Shown here in pieces: positions 4,333 to 22,433 of a stretch of DNA of 22,433 nucleotides. The stretch comes from an uncultured Bacillota bacterium (GTDB lineage Bacteria > Bacillota_I > Bacilli_A > Erysipelotrichales > Erysipelotrichaceae). Position 1 is the stretch's first letter. Each line of letters starts with the position of its first letter. The DNA lies in NCBI GenBank assembly GCA_900321955.1, contig ONXX01000041.1, positions 1 through 22,433 on the forward strand. Direction: 5' to 3'. The notes below the pieces were generated by a model. It searched no databases and was not told the origin of the DNA. It worked only from the letters and a program-made list of their open reading frames with translations. Both the position numbers and the translations under genes were made by a program.

Positions 4333-5384
4333 ATGCCGACAATCAGATTAGTCAATGTAACGAAACAGTTTGGCAAGGGTTCTCTTGCCGTAGATCGTTT
4401 GAATATGGAGATCAAAAACGGTGAATTCGTTTCTTTGCTTGGTCCTTCGGGATGCGGCAAGACGACGACTTTACGAATGATCGCGGGTTTGGAAACACCG
4501 ACGGAAGGCGAGATCTATTTTGATGATCAGTGCGTCTTCTCCGATGAAAAGGGCATCAACCTTTCTCCGGACAAGAGAAATGTCGGATTCCTTTTCCAGA
4601 ACTACGCTCTGTGGCCGCACTCGATGCGCGCGTCAAGGAGATCTGCAAGACCATGCGTATCGAAGAATACATCAACCGTTATCCGGCTGAGCTTTCCGGC
4701 GGTCAGCAGCAGCGTGTGGCCATCGCCAGAACACTGGCACCGAATCCAAAAGTCTTACTGATGGATGAGCCTTTGTCCAACCTGGATGCCAAGCTCAGAA
4801 ACGACATGCGTGCCGAGCTTAAGAGGCTGCACAAGACGACCGATTCGACTTTCGTCTATGTCACTCATGACCAGTCGGAAGCGATGACCCTGTCTACCAA
4901 GGTCGCTTTGATCAAGCTGGGTATCTTACAGCAATACTGCCCGCCGCTTGAACTTTATGGTGAACCGGTCAATATCTTCTGTGCTGACTTTATGGGCAAT
5001 CCGTCGATGAACTTCGTCGATGTCAAGGGCACGGTAAAAGACAACGGCTTATTACTGGTCAACGACCATTTCAAGGTTCATTTCACGCCAAATGAGAAGA
5101 TCGAACTCAAGGACGGCAATTATGTCTTGGGTATCCGTCCGGAATTCGTGAAGATCAGTGATGAGGGCATTGAGTCCAAAGTCATCTCTTCTTTGCCATC
5201 CGGCATGGAGACGACCCTTTCTTTGGGTGTCGGCAGCGTTACGCTTTCAGCCGTCGCTTTCGGCAGTGTCGACTTCGCAATGGATTCGATTGTGAAATTC
5301 AACTTTGAAGGAGACCGTTACGTATTGTTTGACAAGGAAAGCGAACAGAATCTCTCACTTGGTTCGCTTGAGATCGTCGAATAA
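4333..5384 (+). pseudogene. Importer ATPase (FbpC/PotA-like) broken by an internal deletion and frameshift
   Basis: The energy-coupling ATPase of the preceding importer. Frame 1 (4333 to about 4620) gives the N-terminal part with Walker A GPSGCGKTT (residues 37-45) and the Q-loop FLFQNYALWPH. Past that point frame 1 gives nonsense and stops at 4761. The homologous protein resumes in another frame at about 4621 (LDARVKEICKTM) and contains the signature LSGGQQQR, Walker B LLMDEPLSNLD, the H-loop VTHDQSEA and a C-terminal TOBE-like region (GIRPEFVKI) to 5384. In the family some 20 residues (the MTVYxNIxFGL segment) lie between PHM and RVKE; they are missing. The lost length is 3n+1 bases, as judged from the frame change. 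The second part has a GTG at 4611 but no SD of its own. This is either a real inactivating deletion or an assembly error. All other ATPase motifs are intact, which favours an error or a very recent event. Confidence 0.85.
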
Positions 5385-10708: not shown

Positions 10709-10734
10709 AAACTGCGGATTCAGTGAAAAAAAGT

Positions 10735-10766
10735 AAAACTCTGTGTCATACGATACAGAGTTTTTT
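10735..10766 (+). terminator. Terminator of the MFS transporter gene
   Basis: A 10-bp stem AAAACTCTGT (10735-10744) / ACAGAGTTTT (10755-10764) with a 10-base loop and a T tract. As at 9312-9346, the T tract merges with the -10 of the next gene. Confidence 0.9.
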
Positions 10767-10767
10767 A

Positions 10768-10773
10768 TATAAT
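10768..10773 (+). promoter_or_regulatory. -10 box of the saccharopine-dehydrogenase-like gene
   Basis: TATAAT two bases after the T tract of the preceding terminator and 32 bases before the ATG at 10806. No good -35 is visible. Confidence 0.5.
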
Positions 10774-10805
10774 ATTTTAGAAAATAAAACTGTGAGGACA
10801 TTATT

Positions 10806-12077
10806 ATGAAAAAAGTCATGGTATGCGGCTGTGGTGCCCAGGGTTCTACGATCTGCCGAAAGCTCGATGAGGAGCCTTGTATCGAAGAAGTGATCTGTGC
10901 GGATTACGATCTGAATGCGGCAAAGGCCGTCTGTTCTTTGATGAAGAAGGGCACACCGGTCAAGGTGAATGCGGCGAACATCGAAGAGATCAAGGAAGCG
11001 GCAAAGGGTTGCGAACTTCTGGTCAATGTCATGCCGCTTCATTTCGGGGCGAATATGTTAAAAGCAGCCATGGACTTAGGCTGCTGCTATCAGGATCTGG
11101 CAGCTTGCGAGGATCTGCCGGAATGCAAGGATGTCGATCCATACGATCGCTGGATCGCCGGGATCCGCTGCATGTACGATACCTATGGCGAAGTCTTTAA
11201 AAGAAATAACACGACAGCGATCATCGGTACCGGTTCGGCACCGGGCGTCATGTGCGTCATGGCGAGGAAGTGCGTCAATGAACTCGACAGCTGTGACACC
11301 ATCAACATGATGGTCTATGAGGGCGTGGAAGCCAAGCGTTTCCTGCCGTTCTGGTGGTCGACTGATGTGGCTTTGGCCGATATGGAAGAAGATGCCTATG
11401 CCTACAGAGATGGCAAGATCGTCCGTACCAAGCCGTTCTCACACAAGATCTGGCGCAGCTGGCCGGAAAATGATATGCGTCCGGTCATGCTTTGTGAACA
11501 TGCCCATGACGAACCGGTCTATGTGGCCTTCAATGCCGATACCTATTTTAAGGGTTGTAAGAACGCCTACTTCAAGTATGGTGGTGTAGGAATCCGTTTT
11601 TCTGAGCCTTTGTACCGGGCAGGTCTTCTTTCCTGGAAGGAAGAAGAAGTGGATGGCCAGAAGGTCATTCCTCATGATCTGATCTTGAAGCACGTGCCGA
11701 TGGCACCGAAACAGCCTGAGGAGATTCATGAGATCATTGAAGAGGGCGTGGTGTCCGACGGCGGTGCCTTTGTTGTTGAAGCCTATGGCAAAAAAGACGG
11801 CAAAGACGTGATGGTCGAACTTCATCTCAATGCCCCGGGTCTGGTGGAATCCTATGAAAAGGCGAAGATGTCCGGTGAGATGTATCTGACCGGTCAGGGA
11901 GCCTTCCTGTACACAAAGCTGCTGGTCAATGACATGATCTCTCAGAAGGGCCTGATCTCTTCCGATATGCTGGATGAAAAACAGGTCGAACAGTACGTGG
12001 AGTGGGCCAAGGAACTGGACATCACGTACACGATGGAAATCAAGGAAGGCGTTTTGCCAAAGGATTTGAACAACTGA
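10806..12077 (+). CDS. Saccharopine dehydrogenase-like NAD(P) oxidoreductase
   Basis: A 423-residue cytoplasmic protein of the saccharopine dehydrogenase / LYS9 group. The N-terminal Rossmann fold starts with KKVMVCGCGAQGS (GxGxxG at residues 8-13), followed by an acidic end of strand 2 (ADYD) and the LLVNVMP segment. GTGSAPGVMCVMARKCV marks the junction to the catalytic alpha/beta domain typical of this group. Members act on secondary-amine adducts of amino acids (saccharopine, carboxynorspermidine, opine-like compounds). Lysine-pathway partner genes are not adjacent, so the substrate is open. GAGGA precedes the ATG by 7 bases. It sits directly after the MFS transporter but with its own promoter. 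The unusually high cysteine content (for example DLGCCYQDLAACEDLPEC) is notable but there is no clear metal motif. Confidence 0.82.
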   Translation: MKKVMVCGCGAQGSTICRKLDEEPCIEEVICADYDLNAAKAVCSLMKKGTPVKVNAANIEEIKEAAKGCELLVNVMPLHFGANMLKAAMDLGCCYQDLAACEDLPECKDVDPYDRWIAGIRCMYDTYGEVFKRNNTTAIIGTGSAPGVMCVMARKCVNELDSCDTINMMVYEGVEAKRFLPFWWSTDVALADMEEDAYAYRDGKIVRTKPFSHKIWRSWPENDMRPVMLCEHAHDEPVYVAFNADTYFKGCKNAYFKYGGVGIRFSEPLYRAGLLSWKEEEVDGQKVIPHDLILKHVPMAPKQPEEIHEIIEEGVVSDGGAFVVEAYGKKDGKDVMVELHLNAPGLVESYEKAKMSGEMYLTGQGAFLYTKLLVNDMISQKGLISSDMLDEKQVEQYVEWAKELDITYTMEIKEGVLPKDLNN

Positions 12078-12089
12078 TATCAATCAAAA

Positions 12090-12119
12090 AAGAAGCCCTG
12101 CAGTGATGCAGAGCTTTTT
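12090..12119 (+). terminator. Terminator of the saccharopine-dehydrogenase-like gene
   Basis: An imperfect stem with a CTGCA/TGCAG upper part (12098-12102 / 12107-12111, GTGA loop) and an AAGAAGC/GCTTTTT lower part, ending in a T run. Confidence 0.75.
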
Positions 12120-14603: not shown

Positions 14604-14717
14604 TTCATTATTCTCCTTACTATATTGATTAATTTCATTTTACAACGAATTTTTATTTTCTAGTGTAAAAACGTTTCAAAGAGGGCCTCAGTGATTCTTA
14701 GAGGACTTTTTGTTGGC

Positions 14718-14723
14718 TATAAT
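14718..14723 (+). promoter_or_regulatory. -10 box of the cytosine deaminase gene
   Basis: TATAAT 45 bases before the ATG at 14768. The best -35 at 17 bases is TTCTTA (14695-14700), a weak match. An operator-like TG...AAACGTTT...CA element lies upstream at 14664-14678. Confidence 0.5.
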
Positions 14724-14767
14724 GGAGGTGAAAATACAAATGGATAATGATCAAAAAGGAGAAGGCC

Positions 14768-16000
14768 ATGCTGGTAAAAAACGCATACATTGAAAACGAC
14801 AGCGAATTAAAGGATATTCGGATCAAAGACGGAGTCTTTCAGAAGATCGGAAAACTCACACCCGAAGAAAACGAGGAAGTGATCGACCTGGACGGCAAAC
14901 TCGTCCTGCCGCCTTTTGTGGAATCCCATGTGCATCTGGATACCTGCCTGACGGCGGGAGAACCCAAATGGAACATGTCCGGCACCCTTTTTGAGGGGAT
15001 CGAGACCTGGAGCCTGCGCAAGGAGAAGCTGAGTCCGGAAGACATCGCGGAACGGGTGAAGAAGGCAGTGCGCCTGTATGCGCAAAACGGCATCCAGTAT
15101 ATCCGCACCCATGTTGATGTGACCGATCCCAGTCTGATGGCCTTAAAGACCATCGTCCGCTTAAAGGAAGAAGTTAAGGATCTGGTGGATTTACAGATCG
15201 TGGCCTTTCCCCAGGAGGGCATCCTTTCCTATCCTAACGGGCAGCAGCTGATGATCGATGCGGTTGATCTGGGAGCCGATGCTGTAGGGGCCATCCCGCA
15301 CTACGAATTTACCAGGGAGTATTCGGTGGAGTCTTTGAATTTTGCCTTGAAACTGGCCAAGGAGAAGGGAAAGCTTGTCGATGTTCATTGCGACGAGATC
15401 GACGATGAGGCTTCCCGCGGTCTGGAGACGGTGGCGGCCAGGGCCTATGAACTGGGTCTTTTTGACAGGGTCACTGCTTCCCATACGACGGCGATGCATT
15501 CCTACAATAACGCCTACGTCTTGAGGCTGATGCGCTTATTGAAGATGAGCCGGATCAATTTTGTGGCCAATCCTTTGGTCAACACCCATCTGCAAGGCAG
15601 GGCCGACACCTATCCGAAACGAAGAGGTATGACCCGGGTCAAGGAACTTCTTGAAGCGGGCATCAATGTTTCCTTTGGCCATGACGACATCTTCGATCCG
15701 TGGTATCCGATGGGAAACGGCAGTCTTCGTGACGTGGTCTTCATGGGTTTGCATGTAGGGCAGATGATGGGTTATGAGGAGATCATGAACGCCTACCGCT
15801 TTATTTCTATAAACGGGGCAAAGACGCTTCATATCAGCGATTCCTATGGCATTGAAGAGGGCAAGCCTGCCAGCTTCATCGTACTGGATGGCAAGAACTA
15901 TTATGAGTGTCTCAACAGGAATGCGGCGCTTCTGGCTTCCTATCGAAACGGGAAGAAGATCGTTGAAGGAAGAAGTGCGGAAACAAGAATCCTGGTATAG
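14768..16000 (+). CDS. codA: Cytosine deaminase (amidohydrolase)
   Basis: A 410-residue metal-dependent amidohydrolase that converts cytosine to uracil and ammonia for pyrimidine salvage. Metal and catalytic residues line up with E. coli CodA: SHVHLD (His54, His56), HCDE (His207, Glu210), ASHTTAMHSY (His239) and GHDDIFDPWYP (Asp306). The long motif around 268-290 (NPLVNTHLQGRADTYPKRRG) is characteristic of this enzyme. I start at 14768 because AAGGAG is 5-6 bases upstream; the ATG at 14747 would place that SD inside the gene. No cytosine permease is adjacent, and the gene is alone between its promoter and terminator. Related enzymes can deaminate isoguanine or other bases, but the motif match favours cytosine. 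Confidence 0.93.
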   Translation: MLVKNAYIENDSELKDIRIKDGVFQKIGKLTPEENEEVIDLDGKLVLPPFVESHVHLDTCLTAGEPKWNMSGTLFEGIETWSLRKEKLSPEDIAERVKKAVRLYAQNGIQYIRTHVDVTDPSLMALKTIVRLKEEVKDLVDLQIVAFPQEGILSYPNGQQLMIDAVDLGADAVGAIPHYEFTREYSVESLNFALKLAKEKGKLVDVHCDEIDDEASRGLETVAARAYELGLFDRVTASHTTAMHSYNNAYVLRLMRLLKMSRINFVANPLVNTHLQGRADTYPKRRGMTRVKELLEAGINVSFGHDDIFDPWYPMGNGSLRDVVFMGLHVGQMMGYEEIMNAYRFISINGAKTLHISDSYGIEEGKPASFIVLDGKNYYECLNRNAALLASYRNGKKIVEGRSAETRILV

Positions 16001-16020
16001 GCAGGTTCAGGCGAATTAAG

Positions 16021-16053
16021 GGCTGATCGGCAGGGAAACGATCGGCCTTTTTT
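16021..16053 (+). terminator. Terminator of codA
   Basis: A 9-bp stem GGCTGATCG (16021-16029) / CGATCGGCC (16039-16047) with one G-U pair and a 9-base loop, followed by six T. Confidence 0.88.
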
Positions 16054-16085
16054 ATGTCAAAAAGCGAATATTTTGATGAAAAAGT

Positions 16086-19914: not shown

Positions 19915-20757
19915 ATGAGTAAGACTGGACTGGTTCTGGAAGGCGGCGGATTGCGCGGCGTATTTACCGGCGGTGCGATCGACTGCTTTCTGGATAAAAA
20001 GATAGATTTTGATTATGTGATCGGTGTTTCGGCGGGTTCATGTAACACCTTCGCCTATGTGGGCAGACAGCGCGGCTACGTGCGTTCCTGCATGATTCAG
20101 AAGGATCCTGCCAATTCCTTCTGGGGTGTCCGCCAGATGGTGGAGTCCCACAAATTTGTCGACTTGGATAAAGTCTTCTATGATTACACCGAACAGTACA
20201 ACTTTGATTTCAACAAGTTTGTTGCCAACCCCGTGGAATGGGAAATGGTCGTTTCCAATATTGAGACGGGCAAGGCAGAATACATGACGACCAAAGACAT
20301 CGAGACCTCAAGGATCATCGGCAAGGCGTCCTGTTCCATGCCGGGTCTGACCGAGCCGGTCGAGATCAATGGTCAGCATTATATTGACGGCGGCATCTGC
20401 GATTCGATCCCGATTCAGCGTGCTTTGGATCAGGGTTGCGAAAGACTGGTCATCATCCTGACCAGGAAGAAGGGCAATTATTCCCGTTTCAACGAGCCGA
20501 CACTTATGCTGTTCCACCGTATTTACCGGAATTATCCGGAACTGATTAAAGCTTTGGAAGGAAGAAACAAGCTCTATCATGACCAGGTGGATTTTGCCGA
20601 GCAGCTGGAGGCGGAAGGCAAGGCGATCATCATCCGGCCGACGATGCAGGAAGTCAGCCGTCTGGAATCAAACGAGGATGAGCTGATGATGTCTTATTAT
20701 CACGGCTACACCAAGGCAAAAGAGTATATTGATGCGATTCATCAATTTATGGAGTAA
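19915..20757 (+). CDS. Patatin-like phospholipase (YjjU/RssA type)
   Basis: A 280-residue probable lipid acyl hydrolase. The oxyanion loop GGGLRG is at residues 10-15, the nucleophile elbow GVSAGS at 37-42 with Ser39, and the second member of the catalytic dyad, Asp158, in YIDGG. There is no signal peptide, so it acts on the cytoplasmic side, probably on membrane phospholipids. The length is normal for the bacterial short form. GGAG lies 5 bases before the ATG. The next gene starts 6 bases after the stop and uses GGAG from the end of this gene as its SD, so the two form an operon. The physiological role of this subfamily is not well established. Confidence 0.93.
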   Translation: MSKTGLVLEGGGLRGVFTGGAIDCFLDKKIDFDYVIGVSAGSCNTFAYVGRQRGYVRSCMIQKDPANSFWGVRQMVESHKFVDLDKVFYDYTEQYNFDFNKFVANPVEWEMVVSNIETGKAEYMTTKDIETSRIIGKASCSMPGLTEPVEINGQHYIDGGICDSIPIQRALDQGCERLVIILTRKKGNYSRFNEPTLMLFHRIYRNYPELIKALEGRNKLYHDQVDFAEQLEAEGKAIIIRPTMQEVSRLESNEDELMMSYYHGYTKAKEYIDAIHQFME

Positions 20758-20763
20758 GAAACA

Positions 20764-21741
20764 ATGAGAAAACAAGGCGGGGAATTTTCGATCTTTCTGA
20801 AAGCAGCGTTTTTCATGCTGAGCCTTGTATTGATACTGGGCTTTCTGGCATCGATGAAAAGCGGTGTCTCGATGTTTAACAGGGAGGTGATGTCTGTGCT
20901 GTCGACGATCTTTATCATTTCTTTATGTATATTGGGCGTCTTGACCCTCGGCATCCTGATTGCCGCCATTTCCGGCGGTTCCAAGGATGCACCGGTCTCC
21001 AACCGCAGCACATTGATCAAGGACAACACCCTTCGCTATGAAAAGAAAGACGAGAACGGCAGAAAGAAGAAGGTTTCCTTCTCGATCGCCAATATCGATG
21101 AATACCTCAGCAAGTATTCGGAGCTCTATGTCGTAAGAAACGCCCGCCTGTATAAAAGCGACAAAAAGGCCAAGGCCAATGCCAATACCCTGATGGTTTC
21201 GCTGGATAACGGCAAGACCATGAGCATGCGCCAGTTAAACAACAGCGATCCCGAATTATACAATGAGATCTGTGCCCTGCTGGACCGCATCAAGGACAAG
21301 GACAGTATCGATCTGTCTTTCAGGATGCGCAAGTATGCGACAGAGGAAGATCTGATCCTGGCCGGCCGCAAGAGTGCCAAAGAACTCAAGGATCTTTCCA
21401 AGCGGATCAAGAATAAGGAAATCAGAGAGCGGATCAATACGCTTTGCGGACAGATCTATGAATTTGAAGACAATGTCATCGATCATGCCGATCGGGTCAG
21501 AAAGCTTTACGATCACTATCTGCCGATGCTGGAAGACATCGTCGAGAATTATATTACGATGGAGGGCCACGATGCCAAGATCGTCAATATTTCCGATTCC
21601 AGAAGCCGTCTGAGCGATACGCTGACCTTGCTTTCCGGAGCTTTTGCTTCCCTGGAAAAAGGGGAACAGAGTGAAGATCTTGACCAGCTGGATGCCGATG
21701 TGCAGAAAGTAAACGCTTTACTTGAAAAAAGCGAAAAATAA
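20764..21741 (+). CDS. XpaC-like membrane protein with coiled-coil tail
   Basis: A 325-residue protein with two N-terminal membrane helices (about 10-30 and 44-69), then a charged cytoplasmic region. The C-terminal about 130 residues (RINTLCGQIYEFEDNVIDHAD, then LYDHYLPMLEDIVENYITME, ending DQLDADVQKVNALLEK) resemble the 5-bromo-4-chloroindolyl phosphate hydrolysis protein family XpaC: a helical domain with the YYLP-x3-LV-NY-like motif and a D-DADI-VL-type ending. XpaC is not itself shown to be a phosphatase; the family has a toxic-anion/membrane-stress association (often near TelA-like proteins), but no such gene is seen here. A lysine-rich central segment could bind nucleic acid or phospholipid headgroups. 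It is coupled to the patatin gene. Family assignment is moderate, function unknown. Confidence 0.65.
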   Translation: MRKQGGEFSIFLKAAFFMLSLVLILGFLASMKSGVSMFNREVMSVLSTIFIISLCILGVLTLGILIAAISGGSKDAPVSNRSTLIKDNTLRYEKKDENGRKKKVSFSIANIDEYLSKYSELYVVRNARLYKSDKKAKANANTLMVSLDNGKTMSMRQLNNSDPELYNEICALLDRIKDKDSIDLSFRMRKYATEEDLILAGRKSAKELKDLSKRIKNKEIRERINTLCGQIYEFEDNVIDHADRVRKLYDHYLPMLEDIVENYITMEGHDAKIVNISDSRSRLSDTLTLLSGAFASLEKGEQSEDLDQLDADVQKVNALLEKSEK

Positions 21742-21747
21742 TCGTTT

Positions 21748-21774
21748 AAAAGTGATATTTCATATCACTTTTTT
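21748..21774 (+). terminator. Terminator of the patatin/XpaC operon
   Basis: A perfect stem AAAGTGATAT (21749-21758) / ATATCACTTT (21762-21771) with a very small loop and a T run to 21774. Confidence 0.88.
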
Positions 21775-21787
21775 ATTATGAAAGCAT

Positions 21788-21793
21788 TATAAT
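21788..21793 (+). promoter_or_regulatory. -10 box of the pyruvate kinase gene
   Basis: TATAAT 32 bases before the ATG at 21826. The -35 window overlaps the preceding terminator and matches poorly. Confidence 0.5.
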
Positions 21794-21825
21794 GGTCTTT
21801 GAGTTTAAAGAAAGAGGATTTATTT

Positions 21826-22209
21826 ATGGTCGAAAAACAAACAAAGATCATTTGTACTCTGGGTCCTGCCTCAGACAATTATGACACGATATTGAGGATG
21901 GCTCAGGAAGGTATGAATATCGTAAGACTGAATTTCTCCCATGGCACACATGAAGAACATCTTGCCAGGATCAATACAGTCAGAAAAGTAGAAAAGGAGA
22001 ACGGAATCAATCTGGGTATCATGCTGGATACCAAGGGTCCGGAAATCCGTTTGGGTGTATTCAAGAACGATGCCGAGACTTACCAGAAGGGCGAGATCGT
22101 CACGATTCAGCGTGAAGACATCGAAGGTACACACGACCGTTTCACCATTCAGTGCAAGGAAGTCTTTGATGATGTCAAGGCCGGTGATTATATCCTGGTC
22201 AATGACGGC
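21826..22209 (+). CDS. pyk: Pyruvate kinase, N-terminal part (interrupted by a chimeric join)
   Basis: The first about 128 residues of pyruvate kinase, which makes pyruvate and ATP from phosphoenolpyruvate and ADP in glycolysis. Seen: KIICTLGPAS at the start, the active-site block NIVRLNFSHG (Arg34, Asn36, Ser38) and LDTKGPEIR (Asp68, Lys70), then entry into the B domain. The sequence holds to VNDG (125-128), where a hydrophobic LI/LL and the rest of the B domain are expected. From the next codons onward it is a glycosyltransferase. AGAGGA lies upstream of the ATG at normal spacing. The gene's true 3' part is not in the window. Confidence 0.9.
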
Positions 22210-22433
22210 AGCGGGCCGGATCATACGGCCCCCTTCGAGGAGGCTGCGAAGCACCCCGAGGTCACCGTTCTCACTCACGAGGTGAACCGCGGCAAAGGCC
22301 GGGCCATGAAGACCGCGTTCTCCTGGTGCATAAAGCACCGCCCGGATATCGACGGCGTCGTCACCGTAGACGGAGACAATCAGCATCTGCCCCGCGACGT
22401 GCGCCGCTGTGCCGAGGCCATGCTCGCCGATCC
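22210..22433 (+). CDS. Family 2 glycosyltransferase fragment, foreign to the contig
   Basis: The frame is open to the right edge and continuous with pyruvate kinase, but the encoded sequence is a GT-A fold glycosyltransferase: NRGKGRAMKTAF (nucleotide-sugar-binding GKG-A-K-G-type motif) followed by GVVTVDGDNQHLPRDV, the metal-binding D-x-D with the QH-P motif of dolichyl/polyprenyl-phosphate sugar transferases. The start of the domain would be V-NDGS, the motif shared with the pyruvate kinase sequence at the junction. GC is clearly higher than in the rest of the window, with GCC/CGC/GAG-rich codons. Probably it belongs to another genome and was joined in assembly. Confidence 0.8.

Follow-up and report, generated by a model that had tools for sequence, protein, structure and literature searches.

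The open frame that links a pyruvate kinase N-terminus to a GT2 glycosyltransferase at the right end of the window (the whole stretch of DNA analysed, 22,433 nucleotides) is almost certainly a chimera produced near the contig end, either in assembly or in library preparation. Judged from sequence comparison, it is very unlikely that the frame beginning at 21826 represents a real gene. Observed directly were the families of both parents, unfused and nearly identical versions of each, the border between them and the residues they share. As to the agent of joining, assembler overlap is probable rather than template switching in the library. The features concerned are listed below.

20764..21741, plus strand: upstream neighbour, native synteny control (5-bromo-4-chloroindolyl phosphate hydrolysis family, weak, below cut-off)
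21826..22209, plus strand: pyruvate kinase N-terminus of 128 codons, genuine, Erysipelotrichaceae-type (Pfam PK, identity to P0123, 19 relatives)
22192..22210, plus strand: shared stretch ATCCTGGTCAATGACGGCA (ILVNDG plus one base), with the join inside it (protein-level fit to both parents)
22211..22433, plus strand: tail of 223 foreign bases, from the interior of a GT2 glycosyltransferase (identity to P0021-P0023, GC)

Domain content of the open frame

ORF translation gave one open frame from the ATG at 21826 to the window end (21826-22431), with no stops or frame changes and with an in-frame TTG at 21799 as an alternative start. In the Pfam scan, PK (PF00224) was found on residues 4-129 (E = 9.4e-37) and Glycos_transf_2 (PF00535) on residues 122-201 (E = 2.1e-9, 38 bits vs a cut-off of 23.3), both exceeding the curated cut-offs, and the NCBIfam scan agreed in the order of pyruvate kinase and then GT2 glycosyltransferase. 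An earlier sequence-only reading had described the frame as pyruvate kinase up to residue 128 followed without interruption by GT2; the Pfam domains and the stop-free frame bear this out, and its coordinates and motif were right.

The frame contains N-terminal barrel and B-domain sequence of pyruvate kinase and, in the tail, a GT2 core with the VDGDNQH region. A complete pyruvate kinase barrel holds the catalytic lysine and the metal-binding region; here the PK profile match stops at position 132 of 328, and the NCBIfam pyruvate kinase scores are 150.5 and 140.3 bits vs whole-enzyme cut-offs of 432 and 306.4 (PRK05826 and TIGR01064, respectively). Among the 60 of 102 PDB matches listed, pyruvate kinase alignments stop at residues 128-130, with the exception of three that extend loosely to 148-150. 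Everything of pyruvate kinase beyond residue 128 is missing from the fused product, and the KIENQEG (218) and VARGDLG (240) segments of the unfused protein P0123, to which we attribute catalytic roles, fall past the join. Similarly, the Glycos_transf_2 match is confined to positions 30-105 of the 168 in the profile. Pyruvate kinase stands in place of residues 1-31 of the glycosyltransferases P0021 and P0022 (233 residues each), presumably the N-terminal strand of the nucleotide-sugar fold, and the C-terminal part falls past the contig end, where the frame is still open. The fused product would be expected to perform neither enzyme's job.

Additionally, the minus strand has an open frame of 186 codons (21871-22431) that spans the join in antisense, and an open frame therefore proves little here.

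Parent genes and position of the join

Genome contigs were searched with the 127-residue pyruvate kinase part, which gave 30 loci, and 19 of them (L001-L019, 73-94% identity) were compared. Their titles were Erysipelotrichaceae for 15, the others being Solobacterium, Candidatus Colivicinus and two 'Firmicutes'; the 11 loci left out were L028 (86%, with only residues 70-127 on its contig), L020 (52%) and nine actinobacterial loci (41-47%). In all 19 relatives the pyruvate kinase sequence goes on past the position of the join, to 472 residues in 18 of them and as an open frame of 493 in L011; their nucleotide identity to the window falls from 0.68-0.85 in the first 381 bases to 0.23-0.32 beyond them. 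From 22210 onwards, the first mismatch is at 22211 in every one of the 19, and in L012 all 19 bases of 22192-22210 are the same. When 20764-22433 was searched as DNA, all but one of the 19 genomes had matches; the pyruvate kinase alignment ends at window position 22208 or 22210 in 17 of the 18 matching genomes and at 22057 in the 18th.

The window is collinear with genome G003 from base 2 to 22210 except at 2047-2176, 10709-12117 and 14645-16078, so the left contig end is clean. Two stretches, 10709-12117 and 14645-16070, have no aligned counterpart at the corresponding position of G003 and G002, and each contains one long forward frame (10806-12077 and 14747-16000); we take them to be gene-content differences among relatives. 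At 4619-4621, a gene with frames 4333-4761 and 4611-5384, which we assume to encode an ABC transporter ATPase, lacks 61 bases of G002 and G003 (61-62 in G001), and the loss shifts the frame. This gap would be a second lesion in the contig, either assembly-type or real. The upstream neighbour (26.6 bits to its family, cut-off 29.8) lies beside the pyruvate kinase gene at L001-L004, L006 and L007, which are 6 of the 20 loci compared. Used as a search key in genome contigs, its protein returned no relative, though relatives of 50-59% identity exist, and window positions 20700-22433 had no match among plasmids.

The sequence-only reading had also suggested looking for a contig with the missing pyruvate kinase C-terminal part, and this was found. 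Protein P0123 (479 residues), encoded on another contig that is 4449 bases long, agrees with the window at 127 of the first 127 residues, shares its in-frame upstream extension, and continues YILVNDGKQRLTILENDG through to the usual pyruvate kinase C-terminus. Two residues of P0125 and L001, near 150, are absent from P0123, so this exact allele was not seen at full length and free of lesions. Four listed proteins with nearly this start (P0002, P0013, P0123 and P0125) carry differing lesions at residues ~97-150. At the motif, P0125 (99.2% identity over the first 127 residues) has an 11-residue loss; P0013 keeps full identity as far as a frameshift near residue 97, and its end, in the shifted frame, fits GKQR after the motif and not the window tail; P0002 diverges after about residue 117. 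It looks as if this stretch may often be misassembled or misread.

On the glycosyltransferase side, 79 of 80 residues from codon 123 onward are identical to each of P0021, P0022 and P0023. The closest named relative of the tail in the lists is P0066 from Oscillospiraceae (81% over the tail) and upstream relatives are mostly Erysipelotrichaceae, a difference in taxonomy between the halves, which the sequence-only reading had proposed to compare. The donor was probably another, GC-richer bacterium of a clostridial, Oscillospiraceae-like group. Tail DNA had matches in none of the 19 relatives' genomes in a search run without a positive control, and P0022 had matches of 21-37% identity in 5 of the 8 relatives' genomes searched. 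Among 392 sampled genomes from the phylum of the pyruvate kinase host there were 18 matches at E <=1e-40, all at <=47% identity. Viral contigs yielded no relative of the glycosyltransferase parent and no exact match to a pattern taken from the join, and in plasmids and phages its only matches, in 50 records and one record respectively, were of <60% identity. The phage record (58.5%) has AATGACGGCAG at the motif and differs before it. This record, L056 (MT835486.1, 14936-15622), is an unannotated human-faeces phage whose glycosyltransferase is 58.5% identical to P0022.

Base composition changes from a GC content of 0.453 in the 384 pyruvate kinase bases to 0.658 in the 222 glycosyltransferase bases. 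Compared with 470 overlapping segments of equal length from the 14 other coding frames of the window, the GC content of the tail was reached by none (maximum 0.577), its GC3 of 0.811 by one, and a codon-use fit as bad or worse by 19. A sharp shift in both GC and codon use had been claimed; the GC shift held (0/470), and the codon shift proved milder (19/470), the codon use of the tail being only moderately unusual and not extreme.

The position of the join follows from the motif. P0123 has YILVNDGKQR at this place and P0021-P0023 have DIILVNDGSGP, so that the motif common to both parents is ILVNDG (ATCCTGGTCAATGACGGCA, 22192-22210). The shared motif had been given as VNDG(S); it is present, with GTCAATGACGGC at 22198-22209, and is longer than stated. 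The residue before the six-residue motif is I in 120 of the 122 listed glycosyltransferases, and the residue after DG is S in all 122; after DG, K is found in 164 of the 182 scorable pyruvate kinases (199 aligned). Since the nearest parents on both sides have ILVNDG, the join would lie within about 22192-22210, with the frame kept for free. Shared DNA of up to about 19-20 bases is an upper estimate, since the comparison of DNA covers the pyruvate kinase parent only. We place the border at 22210/22211, which would make 223 bases foreign.

Search for the fusion and weighing of explanations

Three protein searches were run, and the best 120 of each, with duplicates merged, gave 321 listed proteins. 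With half-alignment E limits of 1e-20 and 1e-10, 199 of them align to the first half and 122 to the second, and none of the 321 aligns to both, in agreement with the sequence-only reading. The fused-protein search admitted candidates up to 1.75x the query length, which covers a completed fusion of about 320-330 residues (an estimate); its top score among the best 120 of 7160, 253 bits, belongs to a pyruvate kinase piece, and a homologue of the fusion would be expected at the top of these. In the portions of the literature retrieved, no relevant report of a pyruvate kinase/glycosyltransferase fusion was found, and a paper on trehalose synthase was judged irrelevant.

The reading as a chimeric join brings these results together. 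The Erysipelotrichaceae-type contig would be sound as far as the codons for ILVNDG in its pyruvate kinase gene and would then have been extended by 223 bases of a glycosyltransferase gene, from a GC-richer bacterium, that encodes the same six residues; the frame would be preserved, as both genes read the motif in frame. Unfused alleles of the two source genomes are seen, the sequence at the join is shared (as DNA on one side), and the border is 223 bases short of the contig end. The false join at the D/N-DG segment that the sequence-only reading proposed is supported by the end of the relatives' similarity at 22208-22210, by the unfused P0123 and by the lack of fusions among the 321 listed proteins. 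Within this reading, the join may instead have been made during library preparation, through template switching or multiple-displacement amplification where both genes carry the motif, and then faithfully assembled, which we regard as possible and the less likely of the two agents. The short shared stretch at the join fits such an origin, as does the damage close by in P0013, P0002, P0125 and P0123, which have this start, and the 61 bases missing from the ABC ATPase gene relative to G002 and G003; however, the other lesions belong to other contigs, and the edges of the 61-base gap are without a clear repeat vs G001 and G002. Usual assembler k-mers are longer than the ~19-20 bases shared here. 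With parents that are not closely related and a shared stretch that is short for linking by k-mers, a library chimera remains a candidate.

It is very improbable that a clostridial glycosyltransferase fragment was placed inside the pyruvate kinase gene by real rearrangement or transfer in a single strain, giving a fused protein. The frame is open across the join, and relative G001 has a second pyruvate kinase-family gene, so that the loss need not be lethal; but the product would be without pyruvate kinase beyond residue 128 and without glycosyltransferase residues 1-31, the unfused allele is seen in P0123, the border lies so near the contig end, and the same join has no second copy in independent sequence among the 321 listed proteins. 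If anything still less probable is a rare real recombinant in the community, in which the clostridial fragment would have replaced the 3' part of pyruvate kinase via the ILVNDG stretch while the second gene does the work. An evolved bifunctional pyruvate kinase-glycosyltransferase family, which has the open frame in its favour, is scarcely credible, as both halves are incomplete domains and the family would have no members among the 321 listed proteins.

Consequences and comparison with known systems

Positions 22211-22433 should be masked and excluded from interpretation; the 223 foreign bases agree closely with the last ~225 that had been marked for exclusion. As biology the fusion is of no importance, and it is useful as a caution: a join at a conserved motif can leave the frame intact and let each half satisfy a domain scan, and an open frame running off a contig end should be compared with relatives before a fusion is claimed.

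According to a review (PMC7299287), assembly graphs linked by k-mers common to closely related species, or by sequencing errors, give rise to chimeric contigs. The window resembles these metagenome contigs in carrying sequence of two genomes in one contig, and it differs in that the case described there concerns closely related species, whereas the two parents here are not close relatives. Compared with pyruvate kinase, residues 1-128 are an ordinary Erysipelotrichaceae-type N-terminus, and the window frame lacks the remainder. Compared with a GT2 glycosyltransferase of about 233 residues, the tail is like P0021 and P0022 from ILVNDG onward, and the window lacks the first 31 residues.
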